DNA from: Actinomycetospora sp. NBRC 106375
Lineage (GTDB): Bacteria > Actinomycetota > Actinomycetes > Mycobacteriales > Pseudonocardiaceae
Assembly: GCF_030269665.1 (NCBI RefSeq)
Contig: NZ_BSTS01000001.1
Coordinates: forward strand, 434,001 to 498,000
DNA: 64,000 nucleotides
Direction of reading: 5' to 3'
Of the stretch, positions 53,437 through 55,392 are shown in pieces. Position 1 is the first letter of the stretch. Each line of letters begins with the position of its first letter. Under the pieces are notes generated by a model. The model was not told the origin of the DNA. It saw only the letters and a program-made list of their open reading frames with translations, and searched no databases. The position numbers were made by a program, and so were the translations under genes.

Positions 53437-54066
53437 TCAGCCGAAGGTCTCGACGACCGCGTCCGCCACCGCACGCATCGTGGTGCGGCGGTCCATGGCG
53501 GTGCGCTGGATCCAGCGGAAGGCGTCCGGCTCGGTCATCTTCTTCTTGCTCATCAGCAGGCCCTTGGCCCGCTCGACCGCCTTGCGGGTCTCGAGACGGT
53601 CGGTGAGCCCGGCGACCTCGGCCTCGAGCGCGGTGACCTCGGCGAACCGCGACGCGGCCAGCTCGATGGCAGGCACGACGTCGGTCTTCGAGAACGGCTT
53701 GACCAGGTAGGCCATCGCGCCGGCGTCCCGCGCGGACTCGACCAGCTCGCGCTGGCTGAACGCCGTGAGCATGACGACCGGGGCCAGGCGCTCGCCGGCG
53801 ATCGTGCGCGCCGCTTCGAGCCCGTCGGTGCCGGGCATCTTGATGTCCATCATGATCAGGTTGGGGCGGAGCTCGCGGGCGAGGCGCACGGCCTCCTCGC
53901 CGTCGCCGGCCTCGCCGACGACGTCGTAGCCCTCCTCGCGGAGCATCTCCACGAGGTCGAGCCGGATGAGCGCCTCGTCCTCCGCGACCACCACCCGCAG
54001 GCCGGCGGGCACGTCCGCCGCGGGCGCGGGCTCGGTCTCGCTGATGGTGTCGGCCGGCTGGCTCAT
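53437..54066 (-). CDS. pdtaR: ANTAR-domain response regulator, PdtaR-like
   Basis: A 209-residue response regulator. The receiver has acidic pocket ED at 30-31, the phosphoacceptor Asp74 in MMDIKMPG, Thr101 and Lys123 in LVKPFSK. The C-terminus (about 150-205) is an ANTAR RNA-binding domain: TDRLETRKAVERAKGLLMSKK and DAFRWIQRTAMDRRTTMRAV. In mycobacteria the homologue works with kinase PdtaS and binds nascent mRNA as an antiterminator. ANTAR targets are paired hexaloop hairpins. The ATG is preceded by AAGGAG. It lies just upstream of a tRNA gene and the liv genes, as in related actinobacteria. Confidence 0.93.
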   Translation of the reverse strand: MSQPADTISETEPAPAADVPAGLRVVVAEDEALIRLDLVEMLREEGYDVVGEAGDGEEAVRLARELRPNLIMMDIKMPGTDGLEAARTIAGERLAPVVMLTAFSQRELVESARDAGAMAYLVKPFSKTDVVPAIELAASRFAEVTALEAEVAGLTDRLETRKAVERAKGLLMSKKKMTEPDAFRWIQRTAMDRRTTMRAVADAVVETFG

Positions 54067-54362
54067 GAGCGGCTCCTTCGTCCCGGGCCCGGTCGCGCCC
54101 CGCAGCGTCCGGTCCTCACGCGTCGTCGCGCCGCCCCCCGGCGGCGCGGCGTTGCGATCGCCCCGGGACGGCCGCCCCGCCCGCCCCGGGTCGGTGGACG
54201 CGTCCCCCGGCGACCGGTTCGGGCAGGCCGTTTCGATTCAGGACAGTACCTGGCGGAGCCGGGATCACGGACGGTGACGCTCACCTCGTGTGGAGGGCGT
54301 AACAGGGGTCCGGGCCCGCAGCGCGACCCGCGCCCGCCAGCCTCGGCGGGCGAGATCCTCAG
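54067..54362. other. Intergenic region between pdtaR and the tRNA terminator
   Basis: Carries the pdtaR 5' region (AAGGAG ribosome-binding site just before 54066) and a GC-rich stretch. I see no gene or strong promoter consensus, only a weak TACTGT candidate on the minus strand near 54240-54250. It ends at the hairpin at 54363. Confidence 0.4.
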
Positions 54363-54405
54363 TTGGTGAGCGCGTGCTCCGCTGAGCGGAACGTTCGCTC
54401 ACCAA
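54363..54405 (-). terminator. Terminator of the tRNA gene
   Basis: TTGGTGAGCG (54363-54372) pairs with CGCTCACCAA (54396-54405), with an inner stem TCCGC/GCGGA (54378-54382/54386-54390). It sits 26 bases past the 3' end of the minus-strand tRNA, in the direction of its transcription. Confidence 0.75.
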
Positions 54406-54430
54406 TTCCGGATCTTGTCGTTGCGACGCG

Positions 54431-54504
54431 TGCCCCCGGTGGGATTCGAACCCACACTGTATGGATTTTGAATCCATCGACTCTGCCGATTGGTCTACAG
54501 GGGC
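54431..54504 (-). tRNA. tRNA with CAA (Leu) anticodon, class I shape
   Basis: 74 nt, 5' end at 54504. Acceptor GCCCCTG pairs with CGGGGGC with one U-G; D-arm with GG; anticodon stem ATGGA/TCCAT around the loop TTCAAAA, giving anticodon CAA for UUG (Leu); five-base variable loop ACAGT; T-arm GTGGG-TTCGAAT-CCCAC; discriminator A73. No CCA is encoded. Leucine tRNAs are normally class II with a long variable arm, so the identity is inferred from the anticodon and A73 only. Confidence 0.85.
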
Positions 54505-54600: not shown

Positions 54601-55392
54601 TTGTCAGTGGTCGGTGCAAGCGTCAACGGCGTGCACCCGCAGGCGACGGTCGACCTCGCTCTCGCGCTGCGAGCCGGCGGGCTCGACGCCACCGAGATCG
54701 GGCGGAGCCTCGGGGTCCCGAAGAGCACGATCCAGTACTGGTGTCGCGGCGGTCGGCGCCCCGCCGACCCGCGCGCCGAGCCACCGGTCTGCCCCCGATG
54801 TCACGAGTTCCCCCTCGACGAGTTCCGGTACGCCCACCTTCTGGGCCACTACCTCGGAGACGGCCACATCAGCATCTCGCGCCGCTCGGTCCCCTGCCTA
54901 TCGATCTACTGCGCCGACGATTGGCTGGGAGTGCGCGCCGAGGTCATGGCGTCGATGAGTGCCGTCATGACGGCGTCGAAGGTGCACCTCGTCGCAAGGA
55001 CCGGCTGCCACGCGGTCAAGAGCTACACCAAGCACTGGCTGTGCCTGTTCCCGCAGCACGGCGCCGGCCCCAAGCACGCGCGCCCGATCGCTCTCGAGCC
55101 GTGGCAGCAGGAGATCGTCGAACGCGAGCCCGACAGGCTCCTCCGGGGTCTCTTCCACTCCGATGGCTGTCGGATCACCAACTGGACCGAGAAGCAGACG
55201 GAGAGCGGGACCAAGCGCTACGAGTACCCGCGCTACTTCTTCTCGAACAAGTCGACCGACATCCTCGGCATCGCCACGACCGCACTCGACCGCCTCGGCG
55301 TCGCGTACCGCCGACCGAGGTGGGACCTGGTCTCGGTGGCGCGGCGCGAGGCGGTCGCGCGGCTGGACGAGTTCGTGGGCCCGAAGTACTGA
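54601..55392 (+). CDS. Stand-alone LAGLIDADG-type homing endonuclease-like protein with HTH
   Basis: Up to 263 residues. The N-terminal HTH (about 16-48, TVDLALALRAGGLDATEIGRS) is followed by a CPRC knuckle (64-67). Two LAGLIDADG-like motifs follow: LLGHYLGDG (80-88, Asp87) and LLRGLFHSDG (180-189, Asp188). Both catalytic acidic positions are kept, and no intein or intron is seen, so it is a free-standing protein. TTG 54601 is the furthest start; GTG codons at 54607 and 54631 are alternatives. It is divergent from the tRNA, with starts about 100 bp apart. It may be a functional endonuclease or a domesticated DNA-binding regulator, like the LAGLIDADG-related WhiA. Confidence 0.75.
   Translation: MSVVGASVNGVHPQATVDLALALRAGGLDATEIGRSLGVPKSTIQYWCRGGRRPADPRAEPPVCPRCHEFPLDEFRYAHLLGHYLGDGHISISRRSVPCLSIYCADDWLGVRAEVMASMSAVMTASKVHLVARTGCHAVKSYTKHWLCLFPQHGAGPKHARPIALEPWQQEIVEREPDRLLRGLFHSDGCRITNWTEKQTESGTKRYEYPRYFFSNKSTDILGIATTALDRLGVAYRRPRWDLVSVARREAVARLDEFVGPKY

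Follow-up and report, generated by a model that had tools for sequence, protein, structure and literature searches.

The 64-kb window, that is, the whole 64,000-nucleotide stretch of DNA analysed here, carries a tRNA gene with the leucine anticodon CAA on a class I body, and this gene is best read, from its own sequence and those of its relatives, as a genuine tRNA-Leu that reads UUG. Bacterial tRNA-Leu is classically a class II tRNA with a long variable arm, a rule that is used in teaching, in models of tRNA evolution and in isotype calling, but chromosomal leucine tRNAs of well-studied groups, Mycobacterium and Streptomyces for example, break it. The explanation that we consider very probable as a whole is that of a functional, UUG-reading tRNA-Leu(CAA) that is leucylated by the cell’s single LeuRS and whose body has been swapped repeatedly.

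Under this explanation, the window gene would give rise to a functional tRNA-Leu(CAA) reading UUG and charged by the single bacterial LeuRS of the cell, which would recognise A73, A14, A15-U48, G18G19 and A20a in a leucine-type D-arm and ignore the long variable arm. Three of the five isoacceptors (CAA, UAA and UAG, serving codons that are rare in seven genes) are class I in the window genome, with CAG and GAG staying class II. The CAA gene is a standing neighbour of pdtaR across the Actinomycetes, and its body has passed repeatedly between class I and class II, in most cases probably by replacement of the whole tRNA gene and not through loss of the arm at its site.

A leucine anticodon on a class I body

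The only tRNA that ARAGORN calls in the 64-kb window is tRNA-Leu(caa), at 54430-54504 (-). The Rfam tRNA model RF00005 aligns over the full length of 54431-54504 (-) and scores 59.6 bits against a gathering score of 29. The gene (54431..54504, -) has a 7-bp acceptor stem and a 3-bp D-stem, as read from the sequence, and does not encode CCA. Its anticodon CAA (positions 34-36; 54468..54470, -) lies in the loop UUCAAAA and agrees with the position 35 given by ARAGORN. The variable loop ACAGU (54456..54460, -), with U48 as its last base, is 5 nt long, compared with 13-17 nt for the class II variable arm at the equivalent site, and the long arm that characterises class II tRNA-Leu is thus absent. 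The D-arm, GACC-AATCGGCAGA-GTC (54479..54495, -), is of leucine type, with a 3-bp stem, A14 A15, G18 G19 and A20a, and the discriminator base is A73 (54431, -). The CAA anticodon, 5-nt variable loop and A73 that the initial annotation had reported at 54431-54504 are therefore exact.

Folded on its own to minimum energy, the 74-mer does not form a cloverleaf. Greater weight was given to the comparative evidence, which points to a functional tRNA: stem cells are paired in 2486 of 2520 cases over the 126 different sequences that the 154 class I leucine genes described below comprise (among the matches listed), compensating changes occur in most pairs, and the RF00005 match spans the full length. 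A Plastid-ycf2 match on the plus strand, antisense to the tRNA, reached 29.4 bits against a gathering score of 65.7 and was taken as chance, being far under threshold and antisense on a tRNA. Just downstream of the tRNA lies a palindrome of about 65 bases (54353-54416; 10-bp arms at 54363-54372 and 54396-54405; fold z-score -5.95), and similar palindromes occur at five other places of the window genome (L003, L004, L005/L006, L007 and L008). It is a dispersed REP-like repeat, and a reading as terminator was rejected because the palindrome belongs to this dispersed family.

Leucine identity elements

Leucine identity in E. coli is described as resting on A73, the A15-U48 pair, G18G19 and A20a, with the long arm not needed (PMC9976931). 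The window tRNA has this whole set, A73, A15-U48, G18G19 and A20a, plus the leucine anticodon CAA. A D-arm signature that ignores the anticodon (A14, A or G at 15, G or GG, N, AGA, and a 3-bp D-stem) matched 5 of the 45 distinct tRNAs of the window genome, and these are exactly the five tRNA-Leu; a looser version without the 3-bp pairing also matched Ala, Asn, Gly, Lys, Val and other tRNAs and was dropped.

To these were added 154 class I leucine genes, comprising 30 from a strict scan of the phylum, 118 among the named-collection matches listed and 6 others (three of the window genome and those of Nonomuraea, Tsukamurella and phage Mx1). Among the matches listed, A73 is present in 154/154 and U48 in 153/154, both positions having been left free by the search pattern, whereas the conservation of A14, A15, G18G19 and AGA is no test, since these were fixed by the patterns behind most of the relatives. 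Of the 63 class I CAA genes adjoining pdtaR, 61 have A-U at positions 15 and 48, and the other 2 have G-C, a compensated pair.

With the anticodon and variable loop excluded, the body nearest to that of the window tRNA is class I Leu(UAA) (0.83), followed by Lys(UUU) (0.77), whereas class I Leu(UAG) reaches only 0.67. Nearest-neighbour body identity was dropped as an isotype test, as it did not separate Leu from Lys, and the D-arm signature replaced it. In its overall composition this body is simply that of a class I tRNA, and it is the D-arm, U48 and A73 that speak for leucine.

The codon itself was followed in one gene, pdtaR, across related sequences. There, 67 of 100 TTG codons of class I genomes fall in columns where Leu is the commonest residue in class II genomes, and other TTG columns are those of Ile (14), Val (13) and Met (3); for CTG codons the same column test places 519 of 647 in Leu columns. 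UUG thus appears to behave as a leucine codon in pdtaR of class I genomes.

The initial annotation had offered two readings, an atypical tRNA-Leu or a tRNA with altered identity or function. Altered identity would mean that CAA on a class I body is charged by another synthetase, with UUG specifying another amino acid wholly or in part, and the class I body and its general likeness to Lys, Arg and Thr tRNAs are what such a change might look like. It is unlikely, indeed highly improbable, in the light of the A73 and U48 kept in 154/154 and 153/154 relatives (among the matches listed), of a leucine D-arm confined to exactly the Leu tRNAs of the window genome, of the window gene being the only UUG reader found there, and of the behaviour of UUG as Leu in pdtaR; in addition, the abstract of a screen of 250,000 genomes names no leucine-codon change (PMC8629427). 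The kept leucine elements, the conservation of the gene and the use of UUG as a leucine codon instead favour a tRNA-Leu, and we infer that the window tRNA is expressed and charged with leucine.

Leucine isoacceptors, LeuRS and codon use

The window genome (6.79 Mb, 104 contigs, 97.3% complete) gave 46 tRNA matches, from which ARAGORN, run on the extracted stretches, called 45 distinct tRNAs. Five leucine isoacceptors are among them, with CAA, UAA and UAG of class I (5-nt variable loops) and CAG and GAG of class II. ARAGORN found no class II tRNA for UUG, UUA or CUA in this draft of 104 contigs, and the window gene is the only UUG-reading tRNA found in its inventory of 45; a class II tRNA-Leu(CAA) elsewhere in the genome, for which the initial annotation had proposed a search, was thus not encountered among these tRNAs.

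Given the draft state (104 contigs, 97.3% complete), a class II copy could be absent from the window assembly, but not from G143, a single-contig genome placed alongside named Mycobacterium rows on the pdtaR tree. G143 has 45 tRNA matches, 8 of them of class II length, and its leucine set consists of CAA and UAA in class I and UAG, CAG and GAG in class II; none of the 8 class II-length tRNAs is CAA or UAA. As this single-contig genome also lacks them, the missing class II CAA and UAA are not an assembly gap. Pseudonocardia oceani (G396) shows the same leucine split as the window genome (CAA, UAA and UAG class I; CAG and GAG class II), and no class II CAA tRNA-Leu was found in either G143 or G396, the two inventories having covered class II-length tRNAs and leucine class I genes. 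Across the 14 genomes of the genus group to which G143 belongs (g3), the class II pattern matched once in 13 genomes, always CAG, and not at all in 1, with the reservation that this pattern is not a full inventory, having missed the class II UAG of G143 (backwards control, 1 match in 44 genomes). Class I genes for both CAA and UAA were present in 12 of these 14 genomes and for CAA only in 2.

One LeuRS above the family cut-off is encoded in the window genome. Comparison of this protein (L211 181-3141 (-), 986 residues) with solved structures led to the LeuRS of Thermus and that of E. coli, and the two alignments shown leave a stretch of about 50 residues (query 174-223) uncovered. Leucine codons in seven genes of the window genome number 124 for CUC, 112 for CUG, 4 for UUG, 3 for CUU, 2 for CUA and 0 for UUA, and the codons of the class I CAA, UAA and UAG tRNAs are therefore rare in the seven genes counted.

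The pdtaR locus and changes of class

Adjoining the tRNA is the gene of a pdtaR-type response regulator with an ANTAR domain (53437-54066, -; Pfam), which is a conserved neighbour. In an even sample of the class, 30 genomes searched with the window pdtaR protein, pdtaR was present in 25 genomes at 26 loci, and a tRNA-Leu(CAA) lay at most 400 bp from the pdtaR match at all 26, of class I at 18 and of class II at 8. Conserved copies beside pdtaR, another check proposed in the initial annotation, are thus borne out, and its word ‘atypical’ holds against the textbook but not within the class, where class I is the commoner form of the gene (18/26 loci). The tRNA-Leu(CAA) beside pdtaR is the same gene by position and differs in its body.

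Such constant proximity could also point to a tRNA-like RNA with a non-translational role, for example one tied to the adjoining ANTAR regulator. However, class II tRNA-Leu(CAA) stands at the same place at 8/26 loci, so what is constant is the leucine tRNA and not the class I body; the tRNA is on the strand opposite to pdtaR in 38/41 class I loci, and none of 98 UAA and UAG class I genes adjoins pdtaR. We regard such a role as extremely unlikely, and any tie of the class I body to pdtaR was rejected because class II copies occupy the same place. The window tRNA and pdtaR share a strand, and the tRNA gene appears to have been flipped in place, likewise in a Pseudonocardia sp. (L142) and in Bifidobacterium jacchi (L147).

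On a pdtaR tree of 79 rows, 63 class I and 16 class II (not a prevalence, as most class I rows were found via the class I pattern), there are at least 11 changes of class, at least 8 of them forced by starred branches. Shuffling the class labels gave a mean of 14.9 changes against the 11 observed; the label is somewhat clustered, and switches are repeated but not free. Changes occur inside genus group g9, whose rows fall among named Streptomyces, and also inside clades holding named Micromonosporaceae, Nocardiaceae and Nocardioidaceae. Two long rows flagged on the tree (L253 and L273) join beside the window row, and both are class I.

The other neighbour, a gene for an HTH + LAGLIDADG protein (54601..55392, +), rests on Pfam matches under the curated cut-off and on the LAGLIDADG-like motifs LLGHYLGDG and LLRGLFHSDG. 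Relatives 40-47% identical to it adjoin class I tRNA-Leu(CAA) in Actinomadura, Catellatospora and two Streptomyces (L099, L107, L111 and L170), the L107 copy having an in-frame stop. The protein is possibly a homing-endonuclease-derived regulator. The initial annotation had placed the tRNA beside both neighbours: the pdtaR (ANTAR) gene proved to be conserved there (26/26), whereas the LAGLIDADG gene is occasional. A general functional link between it and the tRNA was rejected, the two adjoining in 5 loci only, and it is an optional neighbour with no part in the mechanism.

Distribution of class I tRNA-Leu

Class I leucine genes are widespread in the Actinomycetota. A strict pattern matched in 76/396 genomes of the phylum (backwards control, 0 in 396), a figure that was rejected as an estimate of prevalence because it is too low, the pattern having required a single D-loop length. 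A relaxed pattern that allowed other D-loop lengths matched in 95/118 genomes and 55/63 genera of the class (backwards control, 0 in 118). The empty controls show that the class I leucine patterns do not match by chance. It still misses Streptomyces-like variants that ARAGORN sees (L241 in G023 and L243 in G104), and the prevalences are therefore lower bounds. The 135 relaxed-pattern matches have the anticodons CAA (67), UAA (51), UAG (15) and CAG (2), and none of these chromosomal matches is GAG, which the pattern was able to find. Among the matches listed, the 154 class I genes divide into UAA (80), CAA (54), UAG (17) and CAG (3), from a pattern that could not find GAG.

The named collection contains at least 118 stretches with the class I pattern, at least 110 of them from the Actinomycetota and spanning at least 48 named genera; Mycobacterium, Streptomyces, Corynebacterium, Nocardia, Pseudonocardia and Bifidobacterium are among the matches listed. 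Outside the Actinomycetota, the matches listed in this collection include 7 in five other phyla and 1 in no named phylum, and two contrast groups gave 1/98 genomes (the seed itself) and 6/81 genomes (seed included). Class I tRNA-Leu is scattered there. Of the 7 non-actinobacterial loci that were extracted, 6 have class I Leu(UAA) in the vicinity of tRNA-Cys, and 5 have it in the vicinity of tRNA-Gly as well as tRNA-Cys; a class I UAA leucine tRNA in this setting, close to tRNA-Gly and tRNA-Cys, is present in L399, L400, L402, L403 and L404.

Probable exchange of whole genes and a possible phage source

The route between the two classes was approached through the acceptor, anticodon and T stems of tRNA-Leu(CAA), compared in pairs of loci whose pdtaR is at least 85% identical. 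Mean stem identity is 0.88-0.89 for same-class pairs (n=78) and 0.39-0.55 for different-class pairs (n=15). Within the Micromonosporaceae clade, stems of different class are 35% identical though pdtaR is 95% identical; in the Streptomyces-like group g9 the contrast is weaker, at 0.56-0.74. Class is also tracked by other positions, with T8A9 and C12C13 in 63/63 class I genes and T8G9 and G12G13 in 15/16 class II genes. As most switched pairs have unlike stems, whole tRNA genes have probably been exchanged.

Alternatively, class I could have originated by in-place loss of the variable arm, several times, with compensating changes at positions 9, 12, 13 and 23. The way in which positions 8-9 and 12-13 follow class is what structural coupling would give, and the g9 stems of different class do agree at 0.56-0.74. 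However, stems away from the variable arm are strongly unlike in most close relatives of different class, as in the Micromonosporaceae, and phages and distant families share one class I make-up, which leaves arm loss an unlikely origin. Whole genes rather than arms seem to have been exchanged in most cases, less clearly in g9, and replacement of the whole gene would be the route in each.

Phages or integrative elements are the presumed source of the replacements. Phages of several hosts carry leucine tRNAs with a class I body according to BLAST, and the sequences read are those of Bonray, Pseudomonas phage 254 and Mx1; among the matches listed on viral contigs (at least 124 copies), A73 is present in 123/124 and U48 in 124/124. 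Mycobacterium phage Bonray has a class I tRNA-Leu with the anticodon GAG (L059 2003-2076), an anticodon that is class I in 0/135 of the chromosomal relaxed-pattern matches. The gene for tRNA-Leu(CAA) is reported as the attachment site of cluster J and X phages, one of which has a tRNA-Leu(CAA) of its own (PMC10865867). In Mycobacterium phage WXIN (Omegavirus, L395), 56 nt match the 3' part of the class I tRNA-Leu(CAA) of G143 at 89%, and this attP-like stretch lies about 120 bases from the integrase gene; an integrase also adjoins the class I copy of Tsukamurella. Replacement through phage integration into a tRNA-Leu gene is plausible.

The same observations might suggest that the window gene is a relic of a phage or mobile element, an accessory or dead tRNA that an integration left behind while the true tRNA-Leu(CAA) lies at another site. 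Phages do carry class I tRNA-Leu, in one of them the 3' part of such a gene is found close to the integrase, and the Tsukamurella copy has an integrase beside it. Nevertheless, no other CAA tRNA-Leu was found in the window genome and no class II CAA in G143 or G396, the stems are intact, and the place beside pdtaR is fixed in 26/26 loci, and a relic is accordingly very unlikely. The reading of the window gene as a functional tRNA-Leu(CAA) is retained.

A broader, joint reading is offered tentatively, as one rather more apt to fail than to hold in full. Bacterial LeuRS would be indifferent to the arm in vivo, making the two classes interchangeable; phage-borne class I tRNA-Leu would on repeated occasions have replaced the host gene where it stood, via integration into tRNA-Leu, chiefly for rare leucine codons; and most Actinomycetes would now depend on such replacements for UUG, UUA or CUA.

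In effect, the test that E. coli biochemistry suggests, deletion of the arm, has already been performed by nature, with one locus holding either form within one genus. This opens questions about the purpose of the arm, about how one synthetase serves two tRNA shapes, and about how an apparently essential tRNA gene is replaced whole. Work on rare-codon control in Streptomyces and on tRNA-carrying phages gains concrete pairs of genes for comparison.

Comparison with known systems

A 2023 review describes tRNA-Leu as long-armed everywhere except in animal mitochondria. For M. tuberculosis, long loops are ascribed to tRNAs Leu-2, 3 and 5 (PMC11541572), which implies, without comment, that the others do not have them. 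The main text of PMC9569102, on mycobacterial tRNAs, contains neither ‘variable loop’ nor ‘variable arm’. A word-based search, with most subscription journals outside its reach, returned no paper that assigns chromosomal tRNA-Leu of actinobacteria to class I. The window tRNA is thus a leucine tRNA by identity and not a class II tRNA, and the general class I pattern was not met in the literature searched.

Several described tRNAs resemble it in part. A tRNA-Leu(TAG) with a short variable loop is reported from a horizontally acquired tRNA cluster in members of the Mycobacterium mucogenicum clade (PMC6582537) and is, like the window tRNA, a bacterial leucine tRNA with a short loop, but it is an extra copy beside a normal isoacceptor, whereas the window gene is a standing chromosomal gene. 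Phage-borne class I tRNA-Leu (Bonray, Bacillus phage P59 and Pseudomonas phage 254) has the same body and A73 (123/124 among the matches listed), but the phage copies sit among phage tRNAs, whereas the window gene is the sole chromosomal UUG reader found.

A tRNA-Met with a recent one-base change of its anticodon shares the CAA anticodon and a body without a long variable arm, but scores as Met, whereas the window tRNA has a leucine D-arm, A73 and wide conservation. Allo-tRNA also places an unusual body under a leucine anticodon, but its acceptor domain is described as 8/4 or 9/3, and it combines serine elements with a long variable arm (PMC7609411); the acceptor domain of the window tRNA is 7/5 (7-bp acceptor stem, 5-bp T stem), its variable loop is short and it has A73.

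Animal mitochondrial tRNA-Leu, which is class I, likewise has no long arm, and its LeuRS does not need one; leucine identity of the human mitochondrial tRNA is ascribed to A73 and A14 (PMC9976931). In contrast, the window gene is chromosomal and bacterial, and other leucine tRNAs of the cell keep the arm, and the likeness need not mean common descent. Another counterpart is bacterial class II tRNA-Leu(CAA), with which the window tRNA shares the anticodon, A73, A14-A15, U48, the leucine D-arm with its 3-bp stem and the place beside pdtaR in other actinobacteria, and from which it differs in a variable loop of 5 rather than 13-17 nt, in A9 rather than G9 and in C12C13 rather than G12G13.
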